Below, piece after piece: positions 9,064-45,500 of a DNA stretch of 64,000 nucleotides; positions within the stretch are counted from its first letter, which is position 1, and every line of letters begins with the position of its first letter. The position numbers were made by a program, and so were the translations under genes. Source of the DNA: an uncultured Roseburia sp. (GTDB lineage: Bacteria; Bacillota; Clostridia; Lachnospirales; Lachnospiraceae); the NCBI GenBank assembly GCA_947647505.1, contig CANSKO010000012.1, positions 1-64,000 on the forward strand, written 5' to 3'. Below the pieces are notes generated by a model. The model was given only the letters and a program-made list of their open reading frames with translations, was not told where the DNA came from and made no database searches.

Positions 9064-9086
9064 ACAAAAAAGAAAGGAAGAGCAGC

Positions 9087-9830: not shown

Positions 9831-9834
9831 AATC

Positions 9835-11367
9835 ATGAAGAAAAAAAGAAAAGTCTGGAAAATTGCAGCGGCAGTCGTTGCGCTGCTGCTTGTTATCCGG
9901 TTTGCGGCCGGATTTTTCCTGGGTGGCGACGGGGAAGCGCTTCCGATGGTGGAAACGGCGGCCGTGAAAGAGGATGATATTACCTCAACGCTTGAGACAA
10001 GCGGGACGATTGCCAGTGAGCTGATTCGGGTGTACGCGTCTCCCGTCAATGCGCAGGTTGGTGAAATTCCGGTCGTTATGGGACAGAGCGTGCAAAAAGG
10101 GGAGTATCTTCTGACGTACGATACGGCGTCTCTGCAAAAGAGTTATGATATTGCGGAATTACAGGCAAAGGCGGAAAACGCCGCTTCAAATGATTCCATT
10201 GCAAAAAGCAATGAAAGCGCGGGCGATCTGGTCAAAAGCGCGGGTGAGATTGGCGCTCTGCAAGGTCAGATTGACGCGTTGAATGCGGAAATTGCCGGGC
10301 TGCAGACGCAGGCGACCGAAAATGAAATACGATCCAATAACAATGCGGCCGCCAATGCGGAGGTTGGCGCGCTGGAAGCGGAAATCGAAGCGGCGGGCGC
10401 GCGCGTGGCGGAATTGGAAGCCAAAAAGGAACAGGGCGGCTTAAGCGAACGGCAGAAAGAAGAATTAAAGCAGCTGCAAAAAGAACTGCGTTCCAGGGAG
10501 GAAGAATTAAAAAAGAAGAAAAAGTCCGTGAAAAATTCCGCAGAGCTTGCAAATGAGCTTACGCGGATTCAGGCGCAGCTTTCTCAGAAAAACAGCCAGC
10601 TTTCTGAGCTTCAGGGAAAACTGTCTGAGGCGCAGTCGAAAAACAGCGCAGCCGAGGCGGGCATTTTATCGCAGGCGGCAAGGGCCAATATCAGCTATAC
10701 GCAGCAGGCAAGCCAGCTTACGTTAGAGCAGAGCGCAGACGGCTTATCCAGAGCTAAGGCCGGCATTACGGCGGATTTTGACGGTATTGTAACGGAAGTC
10801 GCTGCATCGGCGGGGACTATGGCGGCAGAGGGAACGCCGCTTGTCACGCTGGCCAGCGCAAATGATATGTGCGTGGAAGCGCCCATTTCCAAATATAATC
10901 TGGCGAATCTGGAAACAGGACAGCATGCAGTAATCGAATTTCAGGATAAAGAATATGAGGGAAGCATTTCCTATATCAGTAAAATTGCGGAAAAAGGCGA
11001 TTCAGGCGCGGCAATGGTTGCGATAAAAATACATATTGACGCGCCGGATGACGCGCTGGTGATCGGTCTGGACGCGAAGGTGACAATACAGCTTGGCGCG
11101 GCAGAAGGCGTTTTGACAGCGCCGATTTCAGCCGTAAATTCTGATATGGACGGCGAATTTGTCTATGTCGTAAAGGATGGCGTCGTTGCAAAGAAATATG
11201 TGACGACGGGAATGGCCTCTACGGAGAAAATCGAAATCAAAAGCGGCGTTGAGGAAGGGGAAAACGTGATTGTGACGGTAGATTCCAGTATAATGGAAGG
11301 AATGGCGGTTCTGGAAGCGGCGCAGCAGGAAGAAGAGATGGCGCCGGCGACCGAAGCGGCGGAATAG
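9835..11367 (+). CDS. HlyD-like membrane-fusion (adaptor) protein of the ABC exporter
   Basis: About 510 aa from the ATG at 9835 (MKKKRKVWKIAA), chosen for AGGAGA just upstream. A single N-terminal anchor helix is followed by a lipoyl/barrel-sandwich half, a long Glu/Lys-rich coiled coil (about residues 120-290, rich in heptads such as LQKELRSREEELKKKKK), the second lipoyl half (ADFDGIVTEVAASAG), a beta-barrel and a membrane-proximal domain. In Gram-positives these adaptors extend the MacB-type permease into the cell wall space. It lies between ATPase and permease, with 9 bases to the latter. Confidence 0.9.
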   Translation: MKKKRKVWKIAAAVVALLLVIRFAAGFFLGGDGEALPMVETAAVKEDDITSTLETSGTIASELIRVYASPVNAQVGEIPVVMGQSVQKGEYLLTYDTASLQKSYDIAELQAKAENAASNDSIAKSNESAGDLVKSAGEIGALQGQIDALNAEIAGLQTQATENEIRSNNNAAANAEVGALEAEIEAAGARVAELEAKKEQGGLSERQKEELKQLQKELRSREEELKKKKKSVKNSAELANELTRIQAQLSQKNSQLSELQGKLSEAQSKNSAAEAGILSQAARANISYTQQASQLTLEQSADGLSRAKAGITADFDGIVTEVAASAGTMAAEGTPLVTLASANDMCVEAPISKYNLANLETGQHAVIEFQDKEYEGSISYISKIAEKGDSGAAMVAIKIHIDAPDDALVIGLDAKVTIQLGAAEGVLTAPISAVNSDMDGEFVYVVKDGVVAKKYVTTGMASTEKIEIKSGVEEGENVIVTVDSSIMEGMAVLEAAQQEEEMAPATEAAE

Positions 11368-25153: not shown

Positions 25154-26295
25154 ACGCCTCACTTAATGAAATGCTCAGGGGTGTTAAGTGGGGCGAATAT
25201 AAAATGGGCGATTTGTTCGCGATACAAAGAACGCTGAGCTTTAATTCCAACAGGCTGGTGGATGGGACGGAATACGACTATGTCACAAGGACTTCCTGCA
25301 ATCAGGGGATTTTGCGGGAGACGGGTTTTGTAAATAAAGAAAACCTAAATCCGGCGGGCTGCTTTAGCCTTGGGCTTTTGCAGATGAATTTTTTCTATCG
25401 CAGAAAACGCTGGTATGCAGGACAATTTGTAAGAAAAGTGATTCCCAGATTTCCGTTGACCGAAAATAGCGTCTTATATTTTTCGGCATTATTAAATAAA
25501 CAAAGGGAAAAGCTGTCGGCGGTCCTTGTGCGCAATGTAGATGAAACGTTTCGTAATCTGCCCATTACGCTGCCGGTGACGCAGAGCGGTCAGATGGACG
25601 TTGCGTTTATAGAAGACTTTATAGAAAAGCTGAAGGCGGGGCGGATCGCAGAGATGGAGGCGGAACGGGCAGATGAGCTTTCCGCTTATCTGACGGTGAT
25701 CGGACAAAACAGCTGCGAACTGTCAGCGGCGGAAGAAATCGCGTTGAAGCGATTTGAGACGTTACAATGGGACGCATACAATCTGGAAGCTTTATTTGGG
25801 AAGTCCACAAGGGGAAAACGGCTGAAAAGCGCAGACAGACTGGATGGGAGTCTGCCGTTTGTGACGGCGGGAGAAGCCTGTGAAGGAATTTCCGCATATA
25901 TAAGGAATAACGTCAGGGTTTTTGCGAAAAATACGACGACGATTGATATGTTTGGTTCCGCAAAGTACAGAAATTACAGCTACGGAGCCGACGACCATGT
26001 GGCAGTCGTGCATACGGAAAAACTGCCTCCCTTTGCGGCGATGTTTGTAACGGCCGCGATTCATAAAGCCTCGCATGCCGGACAATTCGATTATTCTAAG
26101 AATTTTTATGCAAAAGATGCGGATGCGCTGTATATTTATTTGCCAACGAAACAGGGCGGACCTGATTTTGAGACAATGGAACTTGTGATATCCGCCATGC
26201 AAAAGCTTGTAATACAGGACGTTGCCATGCGCGCTGACCGGAGGATACGCGCGGCGAAGGAGGTTGTGAAGCGATCCGTAAGCAGTGCGGAATAA
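25093..26295 (+). CDS. Restriction-modification specificity (S) subunit
   Basis: 400 aa with two target-recognition halves. The first (about 30-190) starts WGEYKMGDLFAIQRT and ends in a helical spacer (FIEDFIEKLKAGRIAEMEAE); the second (about 225-400) starts WDAYNLEALFGKSTRGKRLK and ends in a matching helix. This is the two-fold S-subunit plan giving a bipartite DNA site. I use the ATG at 25093, inside the methylase gene; a start near the stronger GGGGAGGAG (25129-25138) is possible, but no standard start codon sits in frame right after it (next ATG 25171). Translationally coupled to the RM gene. Confidence 0.85.
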   Translation: MGSFQPFENAGERGGAPGKIDASLNEMLRGVKWGEYKMGDLFAIQRTLSFNSNRLVDGTEYDYVTRTSCNQGILRETGFVNKENLNPAGCFSLGLLQMNFFYRRKRWYAGQFVRKVIPRFPLTENSVLYFSALLNKQREKLSAVLVRNVDETFRNLPITLPVTQSGQMDVAFIEDFIEKLKAGRIAEMEAERADELSAYLTVIGQNSCELSAAEEIALKRFETLQWDAYNLEALFGKSTRGKRLKSADRLDGSLPFVTAGEACEGISAYIRNNVRVFAKNTTTIDMFGSAKYRNYSYGADDHVAVVHTEKLPPFAAMFVTAAIHKASHAGQFDYSKNFYAKDADALYIYLPTKQGGPDFETMELVISAMQKLVIQDVAMRADRRIRAAKEVVKRSVSSAE

Positions 26296-26316
26296 AGGAA
26301 AAAGGGGGATGCGGAT

Positions 26317-28188
26317 ATGCATGCGCAGGTCATTGACGAGTATCGGTTGATTTCCATTAAGCAGCTTGTAAAAGCGGTGCGGGAGGGAAAAGACAATTCC
26401 GAGCGGTTTTGCTTTATCATTGGCGCGGGCGCGTCCGTTTCGTCCGGGATACCGGCGGGCGTGACGCTGGAATGTGACTGGATGAGGGAAATGGAAGAGT
26501 GGCCCGGTCTGGGCGAAATTCGCGGGATTGCGGAGCGGCTGCGGGAAAGAAAGCGTCTGGAGCATGATTTTGAAGAGATCGAAGCGGCATGGGAGGAGAC
26601 GAAAAAATCCGGCGAGCCGTTGCCGAGCAAATATTATTTTGATATTTACAAGCTTCGTTTTTTTCCCAATCACAGAAATGGCTATTACTACCTCGAAAAA
26701 GTAATGGCGGACAAAAAACCCGGCTTTGGCTATCACCCGCTGGCATTGATGCTGACGGAAGGAAGCGGAAACAACCTTGTCATTACGACGAACTTTGACA
26801 GTCTGGTGGAAGACGCGCTGTTTTTGTATACGGACAGTAAGCCGTTGGTGATTAACCATGAGCTTTTGGCCGACTATGCCGGAGATTCCAATATCAAGCG
26901 TCCGATTATCGCCAAAGTGCATCGGGGCATTTTTTTCGATCCGTTAAACCAGCCGGAAGATACGAACGAGCTGAAGGGCAGATGGCGTGACGTGCTGGTA
27001 TCCGTTTTTCAGAGCTATACGCCGATTGTAATTGGCTATGGCGGCGGCGATAACAGCTTAATGAACCTTTTAGAAGAAGATAATGTCAGGATGAAAAACG
27101 GGCTCTACTGGTGTTATATGGAAAAATACGGGCTGCCGGATCAGAAGATTCAAAAGCTGGTGCAGGAGAAAAAGGGCTATTTTGTTCGCACGGCCGGCTT
27201 TGACGCTACGATGCTGGCGCTTGGAAACGCATTGTTTCCGGAGAAAATCGGCATTCATGAAGCGGAAGAATATCTGAATAATCGGACAAGCATGCACATT
27301 ACAAACTATGAAAAAGAATATAAGCGTCTGACCGGGGGCGAAGGAGAAGACCATGCAGCGAATTCGGACGGGCCGTCAAACGAAAGCGAAGATGAATTTC
27401 GGAAAGATATAGAAAAAATAACGGAGCGGGGAACCGTTTCGGAGCAGGAACGCCAGAAAATGGACCAGATGACGGCCTGGGATTATTGGCGCCGGGGGAT
27501 GCGGCATTATGAGCTGGAGCAGTATGAAAAGGCGGTGGAGAGCTTTTCCTGTGCAATTGAGAAACAGGCAAATGTGGCGCAGTTTTACAGCGAACGGGGC
27601 ATCAGCTATTATGCATTGCGCCAATATGAGAAATCCATTGCAGAAAATGACAGGGCGATTGAATTGAATCCGGAATTTGAGGTTGCTTATAATAATCGTG
27701 GGTATGCATACGCGAAAATGGGCGAATATCGGAAGGCGATTGCAGACTTTAACAAAGCGATTGCCTTGAAGCGGGAGTATGATACGGCATATCATGGAAG
27801 GGGATATACTTACGACAGGCTGGGCGAATGGAAAGAAGCGTTGCAGGATTATAACAGGGCAATTGACATAAATCCTAAATATGCAGCCGCCTATCGCGAT
27901 CGTGCCCGTCTGTACGCCAGACTGAGTTATACATATGACGCGATGGAAGATCTTAACAGCGCGATCGCGCTGTATCCGGAAAATGCGGCCTCTTATACAG
28001 ATCGAGGAAGCGTGTATATGACGCTTGGCAATTACAAACATGCGATTGCGGATTTTAACAAAGCGGTCGCGTTAAAGCCGGGCGCGCCGAAGCCCTATGA
28101 AGAACGGGCAAAAGCATACCGCCTGCTGGGAGACGAAGAAGCGGCAAAGGCGGACGAGGCCAGAGCGCAAAGCCTGCGCGAAGCTTGA
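26317..28188 (+). CDS. SIR2-TPR protein, probable NAD-consuming defence effector
   Basis: 623 aa. The N-terminal SIR2-like domain (about 30-300) has GAGASVSSGIP (36-46), the TTNFD block (157-161, in place of the usual TQNID), H202 in AKVHRG and IGYGGGDNSL (239-248), so the NAD-binding and catalytic positions are kept. An acidic linker leads to about seven TPR units (388-610; e.g. YNNRGYAYAKMGEYRKAIAD). SIR2-like enzymes fused to sensor repeats deplete NAD during phage infection in several known systems. It follows the RM operon by 21 bases with AAAGGGGG before its ATG, so probably co-transcribed. Trigger unknown. Confidence 0.85.
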   Translation: MHAQVIDEYRLISIKQLVKAVREGKDNSERFCFIIGAGASVSSGIPAGVTLECDWMREMEEWPGLGEIRGIAERLRERKRLEHDFEEIEAAWEETKKSGEPLPSKYYFDIYKLRFFPNHRNGYYYLEKVMADKKPGFGYHPLALMLTEGSGNNLVITTNFDSLVEDALFLYTDSKPLVINHELLADYAGDSNIKRPIIAKVHRGIFFDPLNQPEDTNELKGRWRDVLVSVFQSYTPIVIGYGGGDNSLMNLLEEDNVRMKNGLYWCYMEKYGLPDQKIQKLVQEKKGYFVRTAGFDATMLALGNALFPEKIGIHEAEEYLNNRTSMHITNYEKEYKRLTGGEGEDHAANSDGPSNESEDEFRKDIEKITERGTVSEQERQKMDQMTAWDYWRRGMRHYELEQYEKAVESFSCAIEKQANVAQFYSERGISYYALRQYEKSIAENDRAIELNPEFEVAYNNRGYAYAKMGEYRKAIADFNKAIALKREYDTAYHGRGYTYDRLGEWKEALQDYNRAIDINPKYAAAYRDRARLYARLSYTYDAMEDLNSAIALYPENAASYTDRGSVYMTLGNYKHAIADFNKAVALKPGAPKPYEERAKAYRLLGDEEAAKADEARAQSLREA

Positions 28189-31236: not shown

Positions 31237-31250
31237 TGAGAAAGGTTAAG

Positions 31251-31307
31251 ATTCGAAATAGAATAAATGTTGATTCAAAATAGAATAAAATATTGCAAAA
31301 TGGAATG
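31251..31307 (+). promoter_or_regulatory. Three ATTC-N6-GAAT-type operator repeats before the RADAR-like operon
   Basis: ATTCGAAATAGAAT (from 31251), ATTCAAAATAGAAT (from 31273) and the variant ATTGCAAAATGGAAT (from 31292) are direct repeats whose shared core recurs every 20-22 bases, about two helical turns. The first two are also dyads (ATTC/GAAT). They lie 32-88 bases upstream of the -10 at 31339. The HTH protein encoded next is the obvious candidate to bind them. Confidence 0.65.
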
Positions 31308-31314
31308 CGGGGTG

Positions 31315-31344
31315 TTACTATGTAAGAATAATCCATACTATAAT
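31315..31344 (+). promoter_or_regulatory. Likely promoter of the HTH-TPR-RdrA-RdrB operon
   Basis: TATAAT at 31339-31344, with a weak TTACTA 18 bp upstream (31315-31320). The poor -35 would fit a promoter needing an activator or tight control by the adjacent repeats. Confidence 0.5.
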
Positions 31345-31360
31345 GAGACGGGGGAATAAT

Positions 31361-32167
31361 ATGGAGAATATGGCGAGCGATAACGATGCATTTCGTGTCA
31401 ATATGGCTTTGAAAAAGTATTTAGAGGATCATCATATCAGCCAGGCGGATTTGCTTCGCCTGTGTAAAAAGAAAGGGCGTTCAGTTTCTCAGGGGAATCT
31501 TTCAAAAGTACTGTCCGGTCAGAAGAAAATATCAGTGGAAGAATGCATGGCTTTTTGCAAAGCGCTTGACATTTCGGCGGATATGCTTTTGTTTTCGGAT
31601 TCCGATCGGAGCAAGAGGAGAAGCGAGGGCTTTTTTTCATTACCGGAAGAAATGCTTCCGGCTGTGTCGGGAATGCTTGGTGAGTATGAGATCCTGTATG
31701 TTTCTACGGCGGCGGAAGAAGAAGGCAGCCTGATTGACGGGAGCCTGAAGCTGTATCAGAAGAACCAATCGGTATATGCGCAGGTAGAAATTCATACGGG
31801 CCATTCTGTGACAAAAAAATATAAGGGCTTCTTTGTTGTCTATCCATATTTTCCTACTGCATATATTATGGTAAAGAATAAAGAATCGGGAGAGATCTGC
31901 ATGATGGCTTTACGGTACAGGGCCTTTAACGTGGAGAATATGTTTTGTAGAATGGCATTGTGTCTTACAACATCGGCCGGAGAAAAGAAACAGCCGATCG
32001 CGCATCGCATGATTTTGGTGCGGAAAGGACAAATTGCTGAAAACGCTGTGTATGAAAAATGGAAAAAGGACGCATCCTCATTTTTAAAAGAAGACAAGGG
32101 CTTTCAGCTGGAGCGGGAAGAGGATATGGCGTTGTTTCAGATGCTGCGAAAGATAAAGGAGAAGTAG
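31361..32167 (+). CDS. HTH regulator heading the RADAR-like operon
   Basis: About 268 aa from the ATG at 31361 (GGGGG 8 bases upstream); an earlier ATG at 31343 lacks a binding site. An Xre-like helix-turn-helix occupies about residues 8-65 (YLEDHHISQADLLRLC, VSQGNLSKVLSGQKKISVEE). The remaining ~190 residues are a mixed alpha/beta domain I do not recognise; SLKLYQKNQSVYAQVEIHTG and KGFFVVYPYFPTAYIM suggest a beta-sheet that could sense a ligand. It ends one base before the TPR gene. It likely binds the ATTC/GAAT repeats upstream. Not a known RADAR component. Confidence 0.75.
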   Translation: MENMASDNDAFRVNMALKKYLEDHHISQADLLRLCKKKGRSVSQGNLSKVLSGQKKISVEECMAFCKALDISADMLLFSDSDRSKRRSEGFFSLPEEMLPAVSGMLGEYEILYVSTAAEEEGSLIDGSLKLYQKNQSVYAQVEIHTGHSVTKKYKGFFVVYPYFPTAYIMVKNKESGEICMMALRYRAFNVENMFCRMALCLTTSAGEKKQPIAHRMILVRKGQIAENAVYEKWKKDASSFLKEDKGFQLEREEDMALFQMLRKIKEK

Positions 32168-32168
32168 A

Positions 32169-33494
32169 ATGCAAAAAGAAAACAGGACATACGCGATTAA
32201 GATCGTTTATAATGTATGGGACAGATACGAATGCGCTTATATTAGCGAGTTTTTGAAGATGTGTGGTTTTTTTGTCCTGGAAGAGGATGTTCCGGATGAA
32301 AATTTGGAGCCTGCGTTTTGTGCGGAGGATGCGAAATGGTACGATGGCATGCTGTATCTTGGCGTATCCAAAGACGCGTTTGACCGTCTGGATGAAAGAA
32401 TGGAAGCATGCGGCTATCAGAAACAGAGCTGGATTGGCGCAGATCCTAATTTTTTAAATCAGTATAAGGAAAATAATGCCGGGTATTTGCAGACATATCT
32501 GGAAAACATCGTAAAGAATGTTTTGCGCTATCCGGATGGACAAATGAGCGAACTGATCCGCATATATGTGAATGAAGAATATTGCAGATTGAGCTATATC
32601 AAACGATATTTTGGCAAGGCAGTCGATGCGAACAGGAGAACATTCATGTATAATGGGCTGCTGCATACGATTGCCAGCCTTACGACAGCAGAGAAAAACA
32701 TAAGAGATGAACGAGTGGCGGGCTGTTTTTTACATGCAAAGTTTTTATGTAAAAGAAAAGTGAATGATCTATGCAATTATCTTGGATTGAATAATCGCTA
32801 TCCCCCGAAAAAAATGATTGAAAAATGTCTGGCAGTTTATCAGAAACAGCCTGTGTCTCCTTCTGTCTATACATTGGCGGCCTCTTTTGCGACATGTAAT
32901 GCGGCGTTTCGCGATAATGTGATTCCGTTTTATAAAGACGCGCTGAAAGGGCAGGAAGACAATCCGGCGTACGCGAACGTTTATTACAGAATGGGGTGGT
33001 ATTATGAGAATCATCTGGAGGATATGGCGCGCGCAAACGACGCCTATGACAAAGCGTGCGGCATTGCGCCCGGATATGTGCGGACACTGTTTAAAAAGGG
33101 GACGAAGCGCCTGAATCAGAAACGGTATACGTCGGCCATTGAGGCTTATCAGAGTGCAATAAAAGTTCTGGACGGAAAAAGAAAAAAGGGCCGGATGTTT
33201 CCGGTAGAATATGAATACATGTGTAAATGCTATCTGCTGATTGCGCTGATTTATGACGTATACTGGAACGATCCGGGCGAATGCAGGGCTTATGAGAGAA
33301 GGGCCTATCAGTTGATCGAGAGGGAGCTGAACGACAGTCCGTTCTTTTGGGATTTTTTGGGAGATGCAAAGGGAGAATATATCGAGCATCTGCGCAATCG
33401 CATTGAGCTGCGGAGGTACATTATAATGGACAACTATAAAAACGACAAAAGTACGCAGGACAGGGAGATTATTTATGGAAGGGAACAGAAATGA
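32169..33494 (+). CDS. TPR protein with an unrecognised N-terminal alpha/beta domain, RADAR-associated
   Basis: 441 aa. Residues 1-90 (YAIKIVYNVWDRYECAYISE, FFVLEEDVPD, WYDGMLYLGVS) alternate strands and helices like a small Rossmann or TIR-like fold, but no TIR catalytic Glu can be pointed to. From about 95 onward it is helical, with TPR-like pairs clearest at 270-400 (YYRMGWYYENHLEDMARAND, LFKKGTKRLNQKRYTSAIEA). It starts one base after the HTH gene and overlaps the ATPase gene by 20 bases, so its product is made with RdrA and RdrB. A sensor or adaptor role is an inference. Confidence 0.7.
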   Translation: MQKENRTYAIKIVYNVWDRYECAYISEFLKMCGFFVLEEDVPDENLEPAFCAEDAKWYDGMLYLGVSKDAFDRLDERMEACGYQKQSWIGADPNFLNQYKENNAGYLQTYLENIVKNVLRYPDGQMSELIRIYVNEEYCRLSYIKRYFGKAVDANRRTFMYNGLLHTIASLTTAEKNIRDERVAGCFLHAKFLCKRKVNDLCNYLGLNNRYPPKKMIEKCLAVYQKQPVSPSVYTLAASFATCNAAFRDNVIPFYKDALKGQEDNPAYANVYYRMGWYYENHLEDMARANDAYDKACGIAPGYVRTLFKKGTKRLNQKRYTSAIEAYQSAIKVLDGKRKKGRMFPVEYEYMCKCYLLIALIYDVYWNDPGECRAYERRAYQLIERELNDSPFFWDFLGDAKGEYIEHLRNRIELRRYIIMDNYKNDKSTQDREIIYGREQK

Positions 33495-36171
33495 GGGCAG
33501 AATAATTATTGATCCAACGCAAAATGGGATTGTGTATGAGGATCATATCAGATTCGGGGAATCCATTTTCAGAAGCGTATATGAGAAAGCTAAAACGTTG
33601 ACGGCGCAGATCGTACAGGATAACCTGCGGCTGCAAAAATCCATGCAGCATGGAAACGAATTTCGCAACAGGCGTCAGATGGACAATGTAATCGCGTTTG
33701 TCGGGAGGCGGGGGACCGGCAAAACGTCCGCCATGCTTTCATTTCTGGAAGCCATGCGGGATCACAACAAGAACGGATATCATCTGATAGACGACCGGGA
33801 GGAAGAATTGGAATTTGTCGGTCTGGAATCCATTGACGCCTCTATGCTGCAGCAAAATGAAAATATATTTGACGCGATTTTGGCAAATATATTTGGAGAA
33901 TTTCAGAAGCAAAATAAGAATGTGCATGGAATGGGAAGGCGGAACCTGGATTATGATACGCAGGATTTGTATCAGCAGTTTGAAAAAATATACACGCAGA
34001 TTTCAAATTTAGAAAAGCGGGAGCGGTTTCTGGAACAGGGAAATGTTTTGGATGCATTGGGGGACCTGGCCAGAAGCAGCGAGGTGAGAAGGTATTTCAC
34101 GGAGCTTATCCGGTCTTATATCAAATATATCAACGAAAAGAGCTATGCCGGCGGACAGAATTACAGGAACACCTATCTCGTTGTTGCGATTGACGACATT
34201 GACGTCAATATAAAAAAAGGATATCAGATCTTAGAGGAGATTCACAGGTATTTGATGGTGCCGGGACTGATTGTCCTGATTGCGGTAGATTATGAAGAAA
34301 TGCTCCTGTGCTGTGAGAAACGGTACGTAAAAGCCTATTGTGACTTTCCGGAAAGCGTCATCAGAAATAAGGGGAAGCGGATCATGCAGATGGGGGAGAA
34401 GTATCTGGAGAAGATTTTGCCGCCCTATATGCGCATCTATCTGCCCTCTCTGAAGAAAATGGACTATGCGGTTCGGGAAAGCCGCAGGGTAAGAATAGAC
34501 GGAAAGGAAATGGAAATGAAAGAAGGCCTGTTCCGTCTGATATGGGAAAAAACAGGGGTGTATTATGACGCGGGCGGAAAGAAGCGGCATTTTGTAGAGC
34601 CTGAGACGCTGCGGGGGTTAAGCGGGACGTTTCAGCTGTACAACGGAATGGAAGACTTAAAGCAGAGGGAAGGGGAGAAGGAGGAAGGATTTTTTCAAAG
34701 ATACGATAACAATTATCATATGGTGATGGACGATATTCTGTTTCGGCTTGCCTGCGATTATCTTCCCAACCGGGAATACGAGATGTTCATAAAATGGAGC
34801 GAAGAAGAAATCCTGAGGCGCGGGGAAGAAATTGCAGATGCAGTTGTGATAGAGTTTCCGGAATGGCTTTCGATGGAATACAAAGAGAATATTGGGAGCT
34901 ATAAAAACGCGGCGATTATGAAATTTGTGGAGGATTATGATACATATGGATATAGCTACGGGGAGCTGCTGCGAAGCTTTTACTGTATCAGCCACATAGA
35001 AGAGCTGTATGATAAGCGCCTGATCCATATATTGCTGCAGCAGTATACGGTAGCGTTCAGCAGGATCTATGCATATTACGTGTGCAGGGAATTGCCGTTG
35101 CTAGAGGAAGCGCCTGACGCAGAATCCCGGGCGTATAAGAACAGGGATACGCTGAAAAAGCTGATGGGGACGTCCGTAGGAGGCAGCTGGGCGCGGTATA
35201 TGGCGCCAAGAGTCGAAAAGATCAAAGGCGCCGAGCCATCTTACTGGGGCGCCTGTACATACAGCGGACAGGAAAAGGTTACGCTTTGCAATCTGAAAGA
35301 CGTCAAGCTGATGAAAAGCATCGTCAATTTTAACAAAGAGAGAAAAAAAGGCGCCAATAAAAACAGTGAGGCCGACAGCCGGTGGGAAGCCTGTGAGAAA
35401 CTGCTCAAAAATAAAAAGATGCAGATCTTTGGCGCGCTGCTGTTCTTTTTCAGCGATTTTGACGACAGCCTGAAATGGAATCACGCGTATACGTTTGATA
35501 TTAAGGACCCAAACGAAAAGAAGGAGTATTATCAGTTCTGCTTTAAGGAAGGCAGGAAAACATTCAACATCTTTAATTTTATCAATAATTCGTTTGATTA
35601 CTATAATACAATAAAAAATTATTACATGGCTTTGTGCGAGGCGTTTACAGAGAAAGGTGCGCTGACATGGTCAAAAGAGGAAGCAGAGGAAAAAGTGCGG
35701 TTGTTTATGGAAACGGAGATGGCGCAGGATAGCAGAAAGGAAGAGAAGATTTCTGCTATCAATGACTCCGAATATTCTCTGCTCAGACATTTTAAGCTTT
35801 GGAGCAAAGATGGGGGACTGGCTGTTCCCGTATATAATTTTGACATCACATACAACCTGTTTAAGCGGATTCTGGTGGAATGCAAGCGGGAGGAGCATAA
35901 GGTGATTGCAGCGGACAGCTCGTATGAGAAGTTAAAGGAGCTGTTTCAAAAGATACAAAGGAAGCTTTCAAAGCAGGACGACTTCTATAATAAAAATGGA
36001 ACGGAATGCAGCAATTTTGCAGGGATCTTTGCAGAATGTCCCATTGTGAAGCTGGTTTTGGGTGATAATGCCACCCTCAAAGAAGCGTGGAACGCTTATA
36101 TGGGAGAGGAGCTGAAAACGGCGGATAAAGAAGCGTCACAGAAGGGACTGACAGAGGACGTGGATAATTGA
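33475..36171 (+). CDS. rdrA: RdrA-like P-loop ATPase of a RADAR system
   Basis: 898 aa. Walker A is GRRGTGKTS (77-85) and Walker B is VVAIDDID (Asp240-Asp241), followed by LIVLIAVDYEEML. This is a KAP/STAND-like AAA+ core near the N-terminus with a long alpha-helical C-terminal part rich in Lys/Glu and aromatic residues. Size, motif positions and the adenosine-deaminase gene 19 bases downstream match RdrA, which assembles with RdrB into large complexes that deaminate adenosine or ATP on phage infection. The start lies inside the TPR gene, behind CAGGGAG. Membership in RdrA is inferred from motifs plus context, not from an alignment. Confidence 0.83.
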   Translation: MEGNRNEGRIIIDPTQNGIVYEDHIRFGESIFRSVYEKAKTLTAQIVQDNLRLQKSMQHGNEFRNRRQMDNVIAFVGRRGTGKTSAMLSFLEAMRDHNKNGYHLIDDREEELEFVGLESIDASMLQQNENIFDAILANIFGEFQKQNKNVHGMGRRNLDYDTQDLYQQFEKIYTQISNLEKRERFLEQGNVLDALGDLARSSEVRRYFTELIRSYIKYINEKSYAGGQNYRNTYLVVAIDDIDVNIKKGYQILEEIHRYLMVPGLIVLIAVDYEEMLLCCEKRYVKAYCDFPESVIRNKGKRIMQMGEKYLEKILPPYMRIYLPSLKKMDYAVRESRRVRIDGKEMEMKEGLFRLIWEKTGVYYDAGGKKRHFVEPETLRGLSGTFQLYNGMEDLKQREGEKEEGFFQRYDNNYHMVMDDILFRLACDYLPNREYEMFIKWSEEEILRRGEEIADAVVIEFPEWLSMEYKENIGSYKNAAIMKFVEDYDTYGYSYGELLRSFYCISHIEELYDKRLIHILLQQYTVAFSRIYAYYVCRELPLLEEAPDAESRAYKNRDTLKKLMGTSVGGSWARYMAPRVEKIKGAEPSYWGACTYSGQEKVTLCNLKDVKLMKSIVNFNKERKKGANKNSEADSRWEACEKLLKNKKMQIFGALLFFFSDFDDSLKWNHAYTFDIKDPNEKKEYYQFCFKEGRKTFNIFNFINNSFDYYNTIKNYYMALCEAFTEKGALTWSKEEAEEKVRLFMETEMAQDSRKEEKISAINDSEYSLLRHFKLWSKDGGLAVPVYNFDITYNLFKRILVECKREEHKVIAADSSYEKLKELFQKIQRKLSKQDDFYNKNGTECSNFAGIFAECPIVKLVLGDNATLKEAWNAYMGEELKTADKEASQKGLTEDVDN

Positions 36172-36190
36172 CAGGATGGCAGGAAAATAA

Positions 36191-39100
36191 ATGGAAAATA
36201 CAGTATCCGATTTTTTAGTTGTATTGTTAAGCAGGATTTCCGTTCGCAATCTGATAGAAAGCAGCGTGTCAAGCAGCCGGATGAGGGAAAGCGATCTGGA
36301 AAAGATCTTTCTGCCTTACATGACAAATTACAGCGATACGGAAATGCGCCACCTTTTGTCGGCAGTGAAAGACTGGCTGAAAGGCTACACGGAATTTGAC
36401 GACGTAATGCATGGTTTGGATCGGGAGATCAACGTGTTTAACGCAGTGTTTCATTTTGCAGATAAAATGCTGGTAGAGCAGGATAATGAGATTGCATGCC
36501 GATATACGAGGCTGCTTCGCTGGAGGCAGGTCGTGTCCAAAATATCGGAAGAGACGTTTGTCATGGCCTTTATGGCGAAAAAAGACATCAAAAACATTCA
36601 GGAAAGCCGTTGCTTTTCCCACAAACCTGTGATCGGACACAATAACGCGCAATTAAAGGCGGTGTTAAATGGCGGTATGTCGGAAAACCATTTTCACCTT
36701 ATGGGATCGGCGCCTTATTTCCATATGTCGTGGATTCAGCTGATGAATCACATTTCCGGCAATTCCGTAATGGAAAAGCTGCGCCGGTTTGAAGAGCGGC
36801 GGCGCAATGTAAATATCAAATACAGCAGGGATTATATGGAAGAGCCGTTTGACATCCGGATTTGCCAGGCGTTTTTGATTCGGCTCTACCTTTTTTCGAG
36901 GCTGGCCAACATCCGAATCGAAATCATTCCTTATCGGATTTCCGTTTCTAATCTGGAGCTGGAATTTGGCGTCAAACAGGATGCGTATATATGGACGAAA
37001 GAAGCGTTGGAAGAGAAGGGATTGGAGGAGACAAAGGCGTATTCCATACGGGAAATTCTGTCCATGCTTTTTGGGGACGAGGATGCAAACGTGGATGGAA
37101 TGGAAGCGTTTGCCAGAAAACATGGAAAAATATGCCGCCTGTTGGAGCATATGGATAACGTGCGGATACCGTACTCTGATTTTATAGGAGAAAGCGGGCG
37201 GTTGGAGCTTTTGCAATTACTCAGGGTCTGTCTGCAGGCGCAGAAAAGCATTGCTCTGAATGCGTGCCGGGATTTTCTGGACGAGGAAACGTTCGATGCG
37301 CTCTGGGAGCGGGAGACGCTGCAATGCGTGCAGAAATATCTTTCAGACGCGCAGGGACTGCGATTGCTGATCCCGGATTTACAGCGGATTGTGAATGCGA
37401 TAAAGAATATGAGGCAGCTTTGTGAAGGAGATTATGCGCTCATCTTATCCCATTATGAATGGTATGAAAATGAGGGAAGATATCTGGATCTGTGGGGAGA
37501 AAGGGCTTTTTTATACCACTGTTTTCGAAAGATCTGCAAGCACGGCGTTTTATTTTCGGAGTATGCATCCAATCTGTTTCACGCGTATCTCGTGCTGAAA
37601 GAAACGGTGCGGGGGGAAATGGTACAGGCCAATGAGTATGTCGGATTCGAAAATTTTCAGATTTACGAAAGAAGAAAAAAGGTATTTCTGGGCAGCTCTG
37701 AGTTTGGAAAGCGCATGGCCAGAATGGCGGTGCGCGATACGCTGCAGAGCCAGAATATTGTCAGCCTGGAGGCGCGGATAACGCCGGCTGCCAGGGCGGA
37801 AGACAATTATAAGATGATATGTTCCTATGATGAAGCGATTGACAATGGCGGGGAATTGCGGGACAGGTTTTATTATGTGTTTCATTTTATCAAGTCGAAG
37901 GAGAGCGTGTCTTCTAAAACGCTGCTCTGGAAGCCGCGTCAATTTCAAAAGCGCAGGAATGTGGAGATTTGTGCGCAGGCAGTTCGAACCTTTCGGGAAC
38001 GATATCCGGTGGCGGCCTCCCGCGTGCTGGGGATTGACGCCGCGTCACAGGAAATCGGGTGTCGACCGGAGGTCTTTGCGACGGCATTTCGTCTGCTGCG
38101 AAGCCATACCTGTTCGTATGGCGTGACAAGAGAGAAGCGGCGTTTGCCACAGCTTCGCATTTCGTATCATGTCGGAGAAGATTTTCTGGACATACTGGAT
38201 GGGCTTCGGGCGATTGCGGAAGCGATTCTTTTTCTGAAAATGGATTGTGGAGACCGTCTGGGGCATGCGCTTGCGCTTGGAATTGAAGTGGACGAATGGT
38301 ACGCATTGAAGAATTATCATGTGTCCATACCGGCGCAGGATTATCTGGATAATATTGCATGGCTTTATCATGCCATCGTTCAATACCATATACAGGGGAT
38401 GGATAACCTGAAAAGCTATCTCCAAAAGGAATTTACGTTTCATTTTTCAAAAATTTACGGCGATTTTGCCGTTCAAAATAAGATTGCGCCGATTCTGGCG
38501 CATGTGAAGGAGAAGTATGCCGGACAGGAGGCATATAAGGGTTATTTTGCGGAAGAGTCTTTTCTGTCGTATAATATTTTTACATATTACAGCGCATGGA
38601 TGCTCCGTGGAGACGAACCGGAAATGTATAAAAAGGGGTTTTTCTGCAAGAGGGAAGGGTATGAAGATTATCAGAATACGCATGCGGTAAACTCGCTTTT
38701 CCCGGAGGATTATTCAATTCGCTACATTCCGGAAGTGGCATATTTGAACTATTTATATCAATATGCTGCGGAAGTAAAAAAACGGGGAGAACGCGAGGTG
38801 GATTATAAGGTAATGCCGCTTTTTGTAAAAGGCGTCGCACAGGTGCAAAAAGAGCTTCAAAAAGAAATTGCACAAAGAGGCATTGCAATTGAAACGAATC
38901 CAACTTCAAATTATATGATCGGCACATTCAAAAAATATGCAAAGCATCCGATTGTGCAGTTTTATAATCGGGGACTGGTTGCAGAGGATTGCAGGTTAAG
39001 AGAATGTCCGCAGATCAGCGCTTCTATCAATACGGACGATCAGGGTGTATTCAGCGCCAGTCTGGAAAATGAATATGCGCTGATGGCGTCTGCTCTGGAG

Positions 39101-39265
39101 CGGAAAACAGATGAAAATGGAGAATGCCTGTATAATAAAATGATGATTTATGAATGGTTGAATAATATCCGAATGAACGGAAACCGACAGGCGTTTGGCC
39201 TTTTAAATGGCGATCTGAAAAAATACTGGAAAGAAAATGCAAAAACAACGCCATACATAGAATAA
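36191..39265 (+). CDS. rdrB: RdrB-like adenosine deaminase of a RADAR system
   Basis: 1024 aa, far longer than housekeeping adenosine deaminases (about 330-350). All zinc/catalytic blocks of the ADA fold are visible in order: H167-F-H169 in SENHFHLMGS; YHVGEDF (H660, G-E 662-663); GDRLGHALALG (H692); ETNPTSN; and SINTDDQGVFS (Asp949-Asp950). Insertions between the blocks explain the size and are typical of RdrB, which forms a dodecameric shell. It would convert adenosine nucleotides to inosine, locally or in bulk, to stop phage growth. It lies 19 bases after rdrA and before a strong terminator. No Csx27 or SLATT membrane gene follows. Confidence 0.87.
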   Translation: MENTVSDFLVVLLSRISVRNLIESSVSSSRMRESDLEKIFLPYMTNYSDTEMRHLLSAVKDWLKGYTEFDDVMHGLDREINVFNAVFHFADKMLVEQDNEIACRYTRLLRWRQVVSKISEETFVMAFMAKKDIKNIQESRCFSHKPVIGHNNAQLKAVLNGGMSENHFHLMGSAPYFHMSWIQLMNHISGNSVMEKLRRFEERRRNVNIKYSRDYMEEPFDIRICQAFLIRLYLFSRLANIRIEIIPYRISVSNLELEFGVKQDAYIWTKEALEEKGLEETKAYSIREILSMLFGDEDANVDGMEAFARKHGKICRLLEHMDNVRIPYSDFIGESGRLELLQLLRVCLQAQKSIALNACRDFLDEETFDALWERETLQCVQKYLSDAQGLRLLIPDLQRIVNAIKNMRQLCEGDYALILSHYEWYENEGRYLDLWGERAFLYHCFRKICKHGVLFSEYASNLFHAYLVLKETVRGEMVQANEYVGFENFQIYERRKKVFLGSSEFGKRMARMAVRDTLQSQNIVSLEARITPAARAEDNYKMICSYDEAIDNGGELRDRFYYVFHFIKSKESVSSKTLLWKPRQFQKRRNVEICAQAVRTFRERYPVAASRVLGIDAASQEIGCRPEVFATAFRLLRSHTCSYGVTREKRRLPQLRISYHVGEDFLDILDGLRAIAEAILFLKMDCGDRLGHALALGIEVDEWYALKNYHVSIPAQDYLDNIAWLYHAIVQYHIQGMDNLKSYLQKEFTFHFSKIYGDFAVQNKIAPILAHVKEKYAGQEAYKGYFAEESFLSYNIFTYYSAWMLRGDEPEMYKKGFFCKREGYEDYQNTHAVNSLFPEDYSIRYIPEVAYLNYLYQYAAEVKKRGEREVDYKVMPLFVKGVAQVQKELQKEIAQRGIAIETNPTSNYMIGTFKKYAKHPIVQFYNRGLVAEDCRLRECPQISASINTDDQGVFSASLENEYALMASALERKTDENGECLYNKMMIYEWLNNIRMNGNRQAFGLLNGDLKKYWKENAKTTPYIE

Positions 39266-39269
39266 AACG

Positions 39270-39321
39270 GCATCCTTCCTGCGCATGTCCCTCTCGCGAG
39301 ACGGCGCAGGAAGGATTTTGC
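39270..39321 (+). terminator. Strong terminator ending the RADAR-like operon
   Basis: ATCCTTCCTGCGC (39272-39284) pairs perfectly with GCGCAGGAAGGAT (39304-39316) and is followed by TTTT. Confidence 0.85.
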
Positions 39322-39325
39322 ACTT

Positions 39326-39598
39326 GACAGGCAGGGGACAGGGTAGTAAATTATAATTAAGGAAAATTTTCATTTGGCGCCGGATACGGTATATTGGAAA
39401 TGAGATTGGAGGATACGATATTCTGTGTTTTGGAATGAGTATCTTTATTTTTTATCAGCCAGATGAACTCTGGCGCAGCCGTAAGGAGGCCCCAGGGCGC
39501 ACAGAGTTGAAGGAGGGATGCAGGGGAACGTATTTTGACAGGGATGTGGTTACGGACAGGGAAGAAAAAGATAAGATTTGGAGGGAGGAATTATTTTT
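39326..39598 (+). promoter_or_regulatory. Promoter and structured leader of the giant secreted protein gene
   Basis: TTGACA at about 39324-39329 is 17 bp from TAAATT; TATAAT a few bases on may be an alternative -10. Downstream lie two overlapping hairpins that cannot form together: GCCAGA-TGAAC-TCTGGC (39458-39474), and AACTCTGGCGC with GCGCACAGAGTT (39466-39508), which encloses GTAAGGAGGCC. GGAGGGAGG then precedes the ATG at 39599. I could not match this to a known riboswitch class. Confidence 0.5.
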
Positions 39599-42500
39599 AT
39601 GAAATCTGGAACAGGCAAACGTTTTATGGCGCTGCTTCTGGCGGCGGTTCTGACGATTTGCGGTATTGAATTTCCGCCTGTGAACGCGTATGCGGATACG
39701 GTGGAAACCGGTGATGAAGAAGGATCACAGGTGGTCGGGGATATCACGACAATTGCGCCTGATGAAACGCTTTTGACGTATGGAAGCAAGGGCTTAGATG
39801 ATGGGATATTAGGGGATGTTCCGGACATTACGAGCGTAGAAGATTTGGCGTTTGCGAACGATCTGGAATCGTTTCATATTACAATGATGGTGAAATATGA
39901 TACGGTAACAGCGAACGATAATCAAAGATACGCATTGTTTACATTGGAAAACGACGACGGAGAGTTTGTTACGTTATGGCATAACCCTAAGTTGAATAAT
40001 GGACAGGGACGACTTATTTTGAGCTATAAGGTGGATGGTTCGTCATTTTCCAATTATTACAGCAAACCAGCATATGCAATGTCCGCAGGGGCCTGGCATA
40101 AACTTAGTTTTTCGTTTGCAAAAAGAACGTCAGGAAACACAGACGGCTGTTTTATTGCAATAGATGGAGTGACAGGGGATCAAGGCCATAATTTTGCTTC
40201 CGTTAACACTTATCTGGCGAAGAAGAATACGAGTAAGATTCGGATTGGGAAAAAAGCAGAGGCAGAAACTGGAATAAATAATTTTCCAGGATCGATCAAA
40301 TATGTAGAGTGCTCCTCTAAAAAATATGACAGCGCTGGCACGCTGGCAAAAAATAATGATGTTCCGGAGGCGTTGAAAAACACTTTTGATCAGTATGTTG
40401 AAGCGAATGGCGATTATGAGCAGGACGTGTATAGCGCAAGCCTTTATCAACAGTATGCTACTGCGTTGGAGAATGCACAGCTCGTAAAGGAAAATGCATC
40501 TGCAAAGGAATGGGAAATTTGCACAGCATACGATCCGTTGAAAGCGGCGGTGGATGCATTAATTGCAGCAGGCCCCAACAGTAAGCCGGTTGCAAAACCA
40601 AATGTGGCAATACCACTGTTAAGTGGCAGGGACGTAGAGATATACGCAAAAGATATAGCGACGGATGCAGATGGAGACGATATGCGGATTGTTGAGGCGT
40701 CTCTCACCAACGCTTCTGAAGATCGAGATAAGCTTTCGATAGCGATGTTGTCGGATGGAACAGGAATAAAAGTAGAAGTTCCGGACGGCGCTACGCTTCC
40801 AGACGGAGAGAAGATAAACATTACGGCAAAAGTCTTTGATGGGAGTGGGGATGAATCTACTGATTCGGTGAGCGTTTCATTTGATGTGGAATACAAACAG
40901 GACGGATCGTTGCAATTGGAGTATGATTTGTCAAAGAAAGACTTTAATCCAAAGGGCGAGGAGACTTTTGAAGTATTTTCCCCATCATTTGGAGATATAA
41001 AAAAGCTGTCGCAAATGGGAGATTCTCTGGCAATTTCTATTACATTGAAATTTGACGCTTCCAAAATGGAAGGCGGAAATAACAACGCATATCGATTGAT
41101 GGAAATCGCGGACAGCGCAAACAATTATTCGGAAGTGGAGGATAATAACGGCAATCAGGGGAATAATCCAAAATCTACGTTGGCAGTCTTGTTACAGCCA
41201 GATATATCAAGGCTTTATTTCTCTACGGGAGCATGGCTGGGGAGTACGGCGTGGCAGCTTCAATTTGGCGGAAGCATAGTAGATAATCAGTACCATACGC
41301 TGACGCTGCTGGTAGATGCGACGAATGGCATACGTGCGCTTCTGGATGGAAAAGCGGCGCAAAGCAGCACCTCGGATCAGAATGGGAACAATAAAACCAA
41401 TAATATGGCTTACATGAAGGGCTTTTTTGGCGCTCCTGATCCAGCGGCAACTCAATATGAGGATTGGAGACGCAAAATTGATACGATTACAATCGGAGGC
41501 CTGAGCCAGTACAGCTGTCAGCGTCATACGGCGTATAAAAAATTTGGCGGAACGATACAGTCGGTTGTAATCAGTGATGGCGCAGAGTCTGCTCAGAGTG
41601 CGCACAACACATATGGCATAAAGCAAGCCAGGTCATCCTGCACAGGACTTTCGGAGGTTATTGCGGAAGCGGATGCGCTGCAGGATACTGTTGAAGCGGA
41701 TGTATGGCAGACTTTCGTGGAATCAGATGTCTACAAGCGCGCAAAGGGCACATTGGCGACAACGCATGCGGCGGATTTTTATAATAACGGAAGCGCGATT
41801 GTCTCTGATCTGAGAAGCGAAATTGTAAGAATCAAGAATGCGGCGTTCAGTGGATTCGGAAGCGAAGTTGCGGGAATGTTCGACGCTGCGGGAGATAATA
41901 CATGGCTGTTTGGCGGCGGCGTGGAAACGCAGGGACGGTTTTCCGAAATCGGGGGCATGCGCAATTACGTCGGGCAGTTTGAGGAGCATATTCGCTGGGG
42001 TGAAGCGAGTAGTGGCACAAATAACACAGAAATTCACAGGCAGCGTTTTATGACAAATGTTGGACGGACTGGATATAATGCACAGAAGTTTGATGAAAAA
42101 TTAGACGATTATCTTAAAGCGCTTTCTCCAAAAGCCGTGTCCTATCTGGTTGGCCCGGAGGATTACAGCGGAGTGGGGTCAACGGGTGAAACGGCTATAA
42201 ATAGCTTTAAGCTGGCAATTCAGGGAATTGTGGATAAGGCTCTGGCTGTAAGAGATAATACAGGTATTGCAGTTATTCAGCTGCCGCATGCGGTGAGCGA
42301 TACAGAAGTGAACGGGAATGTGGAGGAATATGCAGAAGCTGCCAAAGCGGCTTTGCTGGAATATGTTGAGAAGGAGGGAAATGCAGACAAGAAAGGCCGA
42401 ATCGTTATGGTGGATCATTTTAGCCAGACGAATGACGCGAGTTTTCAGACGAATAATCTGACGGATGACCTCTTAAACGGAAAGGGACATCGCGCGCTTG

Positions 42501-45500
42501 CCATGCAGCTTTCCAATGCGACGCTTGGAAATACAACCAGCTTTCCGACGCTTATGTCCTGGGAGGAAGAAAGCGCGCCGGAAACTTACCTGAAAGATGT
42601 TCGGCCGGAAGTGACGGCGGAAGCGGGCGGCAAATTAAGCGTAGTGATTCCGGACAACGAGGATACAACGGGAAAGACGTCCTGGAAGTATACGCTGGAA
42701 GTGGAGGATATGGAAATCAGCGGCGAAGCGGCAGAAGCGGAAGGCCGGACGCTTATGATTGACGAACTGCCGGAAGGAAGAGAGTACACGCTTTGTCTGC
42801 AGTCTTCCGATGGAAAAGTACAGCTTGCAAAAGCGTATGGACGGATTACAGCCGGAGAAAAGGGCGGCGCAAAAGAGCTTAACGAGCTGCAGGAAGCAAT
42901 TCGTGCGAAGGTAGATGCGGACGAGGCGCTTACATGGCTGTTTATGGGAGATTCCATCACGCATGCTGCGGCTCATACGTATGGATATGATGGAATTGCA
43001 CAGACATTCGAGAAATATATTAAAGACGATCTTGGGAGAACGGATGATATTGTAATCAATACGGCAGTATCCAGCGCGTCAACGCAATCCATATTGGATA
43101 ATATAGAAAACAGGCTGAATCGTTATACGCCGGACATTGTTTCGATCATGATCGGAACGAATGATGCGGGCTCTGCAACAAATGCCGCGACCTATGAAAC
43201 AAATTTAAGAGCAATTGTGACGGCGATTCGAGAGAAAAATCCGGACGCACGCATTATCTTCCGGACGCCGACGCCTTCCACGGGCAAAGCGAATGCGCTG
43301 GAAAATCAGGGGTATCTGGCGGCAATGAAGCGCGTGGCGGAAGAAGACGGAGAGATTCTGTATATTGATCAGTATACGGAATGGACGGCAGAAGCAAAGG
43401 TATTTCCATATCTGCTGGCAGGAACGAATACATTTGATTATGGAAATTCGCTGCATCCGGGTACGTTGGGACAGCTTCGCATGGCGCGGCAGTTTATTCG
43501 CGAATGCGGATTGAGCACGGATACAAAAATAGCGAATCTCTCATACAAGAATCCCAATTATGTAGAAGAAAAGGTAGAAAATCTGACCCCGGAAATGGTG
43601 GCCGGCAAAACAAGAGCCGCTCTGGAAGAGGATATGATTGCAAAGCTGGCAGAGGGCAGAGAAGCGCTTGGCTCGGTTGAAGTGACGCTTACCGATGAAA
43701 CGAATCATCGGACATACAGGAAGACGAGGCGTTCGGATTCTGCGGAGCGCTTTATCCTGAACCATCTGGCAAATACAGACAATCGGACGTATAAGCTGTC
43801 CATCGTTGGAACGGCAAAAGCAGCTGTCAACAATAAAGCGAAGAAGTATACGTTTACAGGCAAGGATGTTTTACTGAGTTCCCAAAATGAGGCGCTGCCC
43901 TTTATGGTAGAGATGACGCCGGCATTTGATACGTATCTCAATACCTGGACGGGAGGTACGACGGTCGGCACGCTGCGGGAGGGCGCAGCGGCACAGGACG
44001 GCACGTATCGTTTTGAATTTGTGGATGGAAACAACGATAATGAAGAGTTTACAATTGAAGGAAATCTTTTAAAAGTAAAATCAGGACTGGAAGAGCACAG
44101 GACGTATAAAGTGGATCTTGCGGCAGTCAATGAAAACGACGGCGCGCGTTCGCAGACAGGGCGTTTTGAAATTAAAACGCTTGCAACGCTGGAGGCAATA
44201 CGAAAAGAAGCAAGGGATGCATTCGCAGACGATCAGTCCGCATTGGATCTGGATCTTTCGGATGTTGTGTTTAATGGAAGCAATTCTTTGAACCTTGCAG
44301 ATGAAAACGGCGCATGGTATCAGAACGGCGATTATCTGAAAGTGTTAAATAACTTAAGAGAAAAGACAACCGGCGGCACGATCATATATCAGTTCCGCGC
44401 GGCAAATAACGTATCGCAGGGATTGATATTCAGCACGGGCAATGGACAGAACGACAACAACGCGATGGCGTTCGGAATGGATGGCGGAAATGTACGCGGA
44501 AAATTCCGGACGAAAGCAAGCGGTCTTGTTGGCAATTTTGGAGAAGGCGGCAAGGTGGATGATGCGCAATGGCATACGGTGGCCATTAGCTTTGACACAA
44601 CGATAGGAACATATCAGAATCAGATTCTGCTCAGTGTGGACGGCAGCAGTAATGTTTTTCCGACTGACTGGTGGAGGGATAATTGGCAAAGCTGGTTTAA
44701 TGTTAATCCGGAAAATGTGATTACGCACTTTGAAATTGGCGGCGGCTCATTTTCGGCTATAGAGAACAGGATGCCGGCGTTTAATGGCAATATTTCGTTC
44801 CTTACAATCACAGATGATATTTATTCGGAAGAAGAGCTGAAATACCTTTCGCAGACGCCATTGATTTCGGGCGAGCAGACAGTATCAATTGACGGTACGC
44901 AGGTAAGCGTGTCAGAGGGAGCGCACTATACGGCTTCCGCGGTTACATCTGGCGCAGCGCAGGGATCTTCCTTTACGCTGACGACGGATGCAGGCTATTT
45001 ATTTGACGATGAGACGTCGGTCCGCATAGCAAATGGAACCGCGCTTGGCATTGTGACGCAGGAATCCTCCGTATCTGCAAACGGCAGACAGCTTACGGTT
45101 ACATTCAGCACGCAGCCGTGGCGTACGGATACGGTATTTGAGACAGGCGAGCTGACATTTGCAAATGGCGCGACGGCAGATGGAGAAGCTGCGGTAGAGA
45201 AAGCTGTGATTGAAGAGAAGCTTGGCAATATGCGCAGGGGATCCATTACGGTACGCTATAAACTGTCGGCAGAGGCGGCTGCTTCCAGAGAACGGATTGC
45301 GCTGTTTGGGGCTTCCAACGGCAATCCAAATGGATACGCATCCTTCTATATCGTGCCTTCAACCGGTACGATTGGATATGAGATCCGCAATCAGGAAGAG
45401 GGAGCTGGTGAAAGCACGACAGTCAACGCGGATTCAAACCCGCAGGAAGATATCAAAAATACAAACTGGCATACGATTACGTATATCTTTGACGCGTCAG

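Follow-up and report, generated by a model that had tools for sequence, protein, structure and literature searches.

Organization of the operon

The 64,000-nucleotide (nt) stretch of DNA analyzed here (hereafter the window) derives from an uncultured Roseburia species whose assembly spans 2.59 Mb and is 87% complete. Between positions 31343 and 39265, the window contains four co-directional plus-strand genes that encode a helix-turn-helix (HTH) protein, a tetratricopeptide repeat (TPR) protein, an RdrA-like ATPase, and an RdrB-like deaminase of the anti-phage system RADAR. The genes and the elements that flank them are as follows.

31250..31306, no strand assigned: phased direct repeats upstream of the HTH gene, candidate operator
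31343..32167, plus strand: HTH regulator, 274 amino acids (aa), optional member
32169..33494, plus strand: RADAR-associated TPR protein, 441 aa, alpha/beta domain and TPR superhelix
33475..36171, plus strand: rdrA, AAA+ ATPase of RADAR, 898 aa
36191..39265, plus strand: rdrB, adenosine-deaminase subunit of RADAR, 1024 aa
39270..39321, plus strand: terminator-like hairpin with a short U run, operon end

The HTH and TPR genes are separated by 1 nt, the TPR gene overlaps rdrA by 20 nt, and rdrA and rdrB are separated by 19 nt, which bears out the tight junctions ahead of rdrA described in the initial annotation of this DNA. Purine-rich runs that resemble ribosome-binding sites precede the starts of the TPR gene, rdrA, and rdrB. 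The hairpin beyond rdrB has a folding energy of -30.5 kcal/mol (z -5.15; equally stable in 0 of 200 shuffles); a pattern scan gave a list of 12 sites, and this hairpin is not one of them. We infer that the four genes form one transcript.

Identity of the ATPase and the deaminase

The deaminase directly follows the ATPase and contains all of the motif blocks that had been attributed to it: HFH (residues 167-169), HVGE (660-663), GDRLGH (687-692), and TDD (948-950). H167, H169, H660, E663, H692, D949, and D950 are invariant across eight aligned RdrBs, and the first five of these residues align with H152, H154, H498, E501, and H530 of the E. coli enzyme (PDB alignment; numbering of PMC9994260). 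The protein possesses the histidine tetrad and catalytic glutamate of the adenosine deaminase (ADA) fold, and its alignments include a stretch that lies between the last catalytic histidine and the block at the C terminus. At the level of profiles, the ATPase exhibits the features of the RdrA family, namely an AAA+ domain with Walker A, Walker B, and sensor 2. Its Walker A motif (GRRGTGKT, residues 77-84) has G77, R79, G80, G82, and K83 invariant across 25 aligned RdrAs; Walker B residues D240 and D241 (D243) and R380 were identified in the same alignment.

PADLOC models match both proteins (RdrA, 5.8e-10; RdrB, 2.2e-32). Searched as a single sequence, RdrB finds two solved chains of RdrB, 8fnv and 8fnw, with E = 6.5e-19, and with a profile the match to RdrB in the PDB improves to 3.7e-47. 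A profile of 34 RdrAs (that of the window and 33 from TPR-containing loci) matches RdrA in the PDB over the ATPase (1.6e-23); the two PDB sequences that it matched at E up to 0.01 are both RdrA. A 25-row profile that includes the window's protein and canonical RdrAs matches over nearly the whole chain (1.5e-115). The invariant catalytic residues and the profile matches indicate that the pair is almost certainly a divergent RdrA and RdrB, as initially annotated, and that it constitutes a true RADAR system with active sites that are intact at the sequence level. The conserved parts of working RADAR systems are only 22-28% identical to each other (PMC9994260), so the divergence of the window's proteins would be normal for RADAR.

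Survey of RADAR systems

A search for RdrB across 392 genomes of the order gave a match in 16; one of these matches is a 339-aa frame that probably encodes an ordinary deaminase. In this first survey, RdrA adjoins RdrB in 13 of 14 loci and the fourteenth ends at a contig edge. A scan with an RdrB profile of one genome per species (84,980 species) gave 192 relatives; the best 80 of these entered the analysis, and seven viral contigs were added. We analyzed 102 loci including the window, with four repeat fetches of the same contigs dropped; the final set comprises 97 systems with an RdrB longer than 500 aa and includes two near-identical pairs (L095/L097 and L100/L101). Single-sequence scans of genomes and viral contigs returned no relative, whereas profile scans did. 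Among 72,556 plasmid records, seven contain RdrB, all below 36% identity. No match was found for RdrB in phages, for the TPR protein in plasmids, or for the HTH protein in plasmids or phages.

rdrA was called beside rdrB in 91 of the 97 systems, as it is in the window. Four of the remaining six are cut by contig ends (L059, L068, L091, and L122), L071 is frameshifted yet has a TPR gene, and in L117 rdrB is a fragment of 598 aa preceded by about 10 kb of DNA. In five Bacteroidota loci (L098, L100, L101, L108, and L121; about positions 7450-9980) and in a Clostridia metagenome-assembled genome (L043:7352-9962), rdrA is present as two adjacent open reading frames (ORFs) that encode a 310-364-aa ATPase part and a 472-504-aa second part, with a gap of 2-7 nt. 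A natural split of the ATPase and the C-terminal lobe is possible; the second ORF is unmatched by the RdrA profile in L098 and L101. Two RADAR systems or remnants lie close together in one genome in L052, L050, L067, and L046 plus L058 (contig CAJTDL010000001.1), and the TPR proteins of such pairs differ wherever both are visible.

Distribution of the TPR gene

In 40 of the 97 systems (34 with the TPR gene and 6 with both the TPR and a full-length HTH gene), rdrA is immediately preceded by a TPR gene, always on the same strand and at -89 to +171 nt from rdrA. The TPR gene is visibly absent from 43 systems; the other 14 could not be scored, eight for having less than 1300 nt upstream of rdrA and six for having no called rdrA. 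L071 and a second, partial TPR-rdrA pair in L050 were left out of these counts. On the RdrB tree (93 rows), the TPR systems lie together in the Clostridia, and 33 of the 40 come from Lachnospiraceae records. Systems from Lachnospiraceae in the neighboring group (e.g., L116 and L118) lack the gene, as do those of Clostridium and Bacteroidota, which argues that its presence follows the RdrB lineage rather than the host family. The trait requires three changes on the tree (82 rows; 40 with and 42 without). A single clade of the 40 systems and L043 is not rejected (p-AU 0.62), and the likelihood of the constrained tree is 3.15 above that of the free tree; this is a quick tree, L043 was included in the clade post hoc, and the test is no proof of a clade. 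L043 (genome G064), with its two-ORF rdrA, is the sole member of the group that has no TPR gene.

When the 392 genomes were scanned with a 42-row TPR profile (up to four candidates scored per genome), full-length matches occurred in three, each directly upstream of rdrA. Eight further matches cover only generic repeats at profile positions of about 219-334. We conclude that the TPR protein is very probably a genuine third component of RADAR. We found no description of such a gene in the literature searched, which lacked the 2020 Science article that introduced RADAR and the second of the 2023 Cell articles on its structure, and the results support TPR-bearing RADAR as a variant with a conserved third component. 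The proposal that HTH and TPR genes together mark an undescribed subtype is supported for the TPR gene, which recurs upstream of rdrA and groups on the RdrB tree, but not for the HTH gene as a standard member, which directly precedes the TPR gene in only six of the 40 TPR systems.

Structure of the TPR protein and its relation to RdrA

In the predicted structure of the TPR protein (predicted local distance difference test score 88.6), residues 9-80 form a three-stranded alpha/beta domain and residues 95-424 a helical superhelix. Fold searches returned TPR proteins over the helical part, with Rap proteins among them. Some members open with an FISYS-like strand. TIR families are not among the 25 listed of the 59 Pfam families matched by 42 TPR members, and comparison of the N-terminal domain by hhalign with two rows of TIR and one of DUF4062 produced no match; in the fold search, the TPR part outweighed this domain. 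Identity of this domain with TIR thus has no support from the Pfam listing or hhalign.

The TPR protein and RdrA evolve fast: across the 40 systems, median identity is 18% for the TPR protein, 22% for RdrA, and 38% for RdrB. Correlation between distance matrices is highest for TPR and RdrA (0.66), compared with 0.44 for TPR and RdrB and 0.41 for RdrA and RdrB; 0 of 999 permutations were as high in each case. The difference between the two TPR correlations is 0.22 (bootstrap 0.09-0.34). Because its divergence tracks that of RdrA better than that of RdrB, the TPR protein is suggested to be a partner of RdrA. Within RdrA, the TPR protein fits residues 346-620 best (0.64), ahead of residues 621-898 (0.54) and the ATPase part (0.51), which points to a contact with the C-terminal lobe, the region that has been suggested to act as a sensor (PMC9994260). 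RdrB fits the ATPase part best (0.48; residues 346-620, 0.33; residues 621-898, 0.24), broadly in line with the docking of RdrB on the ATPase crown of RdrA observed by cryo-electron microscopy (PMC9994260). A role for the TPR protein as a sensor or adaptor of RdrA is the reading that we lean toward.

The HTH gene and its upstream repeats

The HTH protein is predicted to contain a Cro/C1-type HTH at about residues 16-84 and an eight-stranded beta-barrel at about residues 105-228; it has no WYL domain by Pfam. The six systems in which the full-length gene directly precedes the TPR gene are scattered on the tree (five changes), and a seventh homologue lies about 2 kb downstream of RADAR on the opposite strand (L065). 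The family also occurs, without an RdrB match in the same genome, in three of the 392 genomes. One of these homologues (L144:6655-9493) is one gene from KwaA of the Kiwa system, and another (L145:6935-11253) lies 1.2 kb from PtuAB of Septu, so the protein looks like a regulator shared among defense loci. The HTH gene is optional and is not specific to RADAR.

The repeats upstream of the HTH gene consist of an 18-nt element present twice (94% alike) and an 11-nt core present three times with spacings of 22 and 20 nt. Repeats as good arose in 0 of 300 dinucleotide shuffles each for the window and L077, and 1 of 36 control loci reached p < 0.05. These repeats may be the operator of the HTH protein, which probably regulates the RADAR operon. 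Homology of the barrel to Cap15 was considered and has no sequence support: no sequence match was found and PF18153 does not recognize the barrel. De novo barrels and a quinohemoprotein domain outscore Cap15 in the fold list, so the likeness may be one of fold only.

Accessory and neighboring genes

According to BLAST clusters and motifs, about nine SLATT-like and seven Csx27-like genes, about 16 in total, adjoin the 40 TPR systems, while about half of these systems, including the window, have no such adjoining gene. DUF4231/SLATT scores exceed the Pfam cut-off for L047 and L103 and fall below it for L044 and L058; Csx27 was identified by profile in L056 and L077 and weakly in L115. The initial view that HTH and TPR genes take the place of a membrane accessory is accordingly correct for the window, but does not extend to the group. 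Cap15, a two-transmembrane (two-TM) barrel effector, is encoded in Sporofaciens musculi (L048:12907-13608; PF18153, 6.3e-14) by a gene that, as called, overlaps the end of rdrB, and a partial relative lies upstream of the TPR gene at L061:3-299. The background frequency of Cap15 is 1 in 295 genomes.

Ham1 proteins belong to the ITP/dITP pyrophosphatase family. Ham1-SIR2 fusions adjoin RADAR systems both with and without the TPR gene (L041:2481-3947, minus strand; L050:6762-8246; L055:4598-6298; L064:4804-6192). The full-length fusion occurs in one of 295 genomes, and that genome (G208) is the source of L041; no match was found in the window's own assembly, which is about 87% complete. SIR2-STAND or SIR2-STALD-TIR proteins are encoded downstream of RADAR at L042:9345-11969, L070:5620-7641, and L075:12555-14570, as assigned by Pfam for the first two and by BLAST clustering with L070 for the third.

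The operon of the window is flanked by a fabG-like gene upstream and a gene for a 3069-aa surface protein downstream (39578-48787; GDSL lipase, BNR/sialidase, laminin-G, and FIVAR domains), neither of which is a membrane accessory. A cluster at 23105-28188, 3-8 kb 5' of RADAR, encodes a type IIG restriction-methyltransferase, its specificity subunit, and a SIR2-TPR protein. Between this cluster and RADAR lie aroK-, aroE-, aroD-, and fabG-like genes, all named from their translations.

Comparison with known systems

The RADAR systems of E. coli, C. rodentium, and S. suis (PDB 8fnt, 8fnv, and 8hr7) consist of RdrA and RdrB and are two-gene systems (PMC9994260). The window shares with them the tandem AAA+ ATPase and ADA-fold deaminase, the catalytic residues, and similar protein sizes; it differs in the TPR gene that overlaps rdrA, the optional HTH gene, and scores below the NCBIfam cut-offs. 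Csx27- and SLATT-associated RADAR systems (named in PMC7699616 and PMC11676413) likewise combine rdrAB with accessories, and membrane genes also lie beside some TPR systems, whereas the accessory in the window is a soluble TPR protein.

In the Kongming system, KomB is a HAM1 protein and KomC is a SIR2 protein, a pair that the Ham1-SIR2 fusion of some RADAR relatives resembles. Kongming also has a deaminase output, an inosine nucleotide, that serves as a trigger (PMC12948488, PMC12774641), a feature that RADAR may share, but RdrA is present here and no Ham1-SIR2 match was found in the window's genome. Like BrxR-type regulators (PMC9122589), the HTH protein is a DNA-binding protein in a defense operon; unlike them it joins an HTH to a predicted beta-barrel, with no Pfam WYL domain. 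RRNPP proteins such as Rap and Rgg combine HTH and TPR parts, and Rap is found among the fold matches of the TPR model. In the window, however, these parts are two proteins and the HTH protein has a barrel of its own.

Discussion

Taken as a whole, the operon is best explained, with somewhat better than even confidence, as a TPR-bearing RADAR anti-phage operon in which the TPR protein is an exchangeable recognition or gating subunit of RdrA and the HTH protein provides control. By analogy with characterized RADARs, RdrB would turn (d)ATP into (d)ITP, and heptamers of RdrA would dock on the RdrB dodecamer. The TPR protein would bind the C-terminal lobe of RdrA, as co-divergence suggests, and either read a phage product or be displaced by one. 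Sensing of that product through the TPR protein would lead RdrA to assemble on RdrB, after which inosine nucleotides would halt the infection. The phased repeats suggest that the HTH protein would bind sites ahead of its own gene and hold expression of the operon low until its barrel meets a ligand. The dedicated sensor envisaged in the initial annotation is plausible, and dedicated transcriptional control may apply as well.

Several observations weigh against parts of this explanation. Taken by itself, the RdrA of the window has no match among PDB chains at E up to 1, and although RdrA and RdrB profiles score, both proteins miss the curated NCBIfam cut-offs (NF041743 for RdrA, 72.1 of 600 bits; NF041744 for RdrB, 181.5 of 800 bits). 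These cut-offs are naming thresholds rather than features of RADAR itself; such shortfalls would be expected of a divergent branch, and annotation by these cut-offs would miss the system. The distance correlations rest on saturated comparisons, given the median identities of the TPR protein and RdrA, and the differences between regions of RdrA carry no bootstrap. Residues 125-225 of RdrA, our guess for the crown, fit the TPR protein as well as residues 621-898 do (0.54) and, taken alone, fit RdrB at only 0.40. The absence of a TPR gene from L043 suggests that the protein may be dispensable. Upstream repeats are significant for two of six HTH genes, with a tested range of spacings chosen post hoc, and a promoter scan gave no excess of sites (19 compared with 16.6 in shuffles).

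Alternative roles for the TPR protein can be envisioned. It might be a keeper that, like an antitoxin or chaperone, binds RdrA and blocks costly assembly with RdrB until infection removes it. Antitoxins are often made first, and a TPR gene that overlaps or closely precedes rdrA would be translated ahead of it; co-divergence of TPR and RdrA that exceeds that of RdrA and RdrB also fits. This role is rather improbable given that 43 of 97 systems visibly lack a TPR gene and that characterized RADARs are described as two-gene systems (PMC9994260). Even less probable is that the TPR protein widens or localizes RADAR as an adaptor to SLATT- or Csx27-type membrane accessories rather than sensing phage: the SLATT-like, Csx27-like, and two Cap15-like genes that adjoin the 40 TPR systems would fit, but the window and about half of these systems have no adjoining gene of the SLATT or Csx27 type. 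The notion that the two proteins serve purine metabolism rather than defense, as a deaminase and its associated ATPase, draws on the match of the deaminase fold to ordinary adenosine deaminases; it is very improbable, as what the two proteins match best in the PDB is RdrB and, at the level of profiles, RdrA, the latter match contradicting it, and as RdrA stands beside RdrB in nearly every locus of the first survey and other defense genes lie a few kilobases upstream.

With regard to the HTH protein, its scattered occurrence, the displaced homologue in L065, and the three genomes that have the family in the absence of RdrB could mean that it is a passenger, the regulator of a neighboring element with no role in the RADAR operon. 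We consider this unlikely, because in the window 1 nt separates its gene from the TPR gene and because two of its three non-RADAR homologues lie near KwaA and PtuAB. A broader proposal, which we regard as doubtful, is that the inosine nucleotides of RADAR serve both as a poison and as a second messenger. Their readers would differ between operons: Ham1-SIR2 proteins, Cap15 two-TM barrels, and the HTH barrel of the window, which would bind (d)ITP or a related nucleotide and release the operon in a feed-forward manner, with TPR-RdrA as the phage sensor. In Kongming, dITP activates an NADase (PMC12948488, PMC12774641), so RADARs with Ham1-SIR2 may signal as well; where the fusion adjoins, RADAR may feed a Kongming-like NADase.

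To return to the preferred reading of the TPR protein as a recognition or gating subunit of RdrA, its significance lies in the question of what RADAR senses, which PMC9994260 names as a limitation. Co-divergence with RdrA makes this third protein a concrete handle on that question, and the Ham1-SIR2 and Cap15 genes found in relatives make a signaling role for ITP/dITP in RADAR directly testable.

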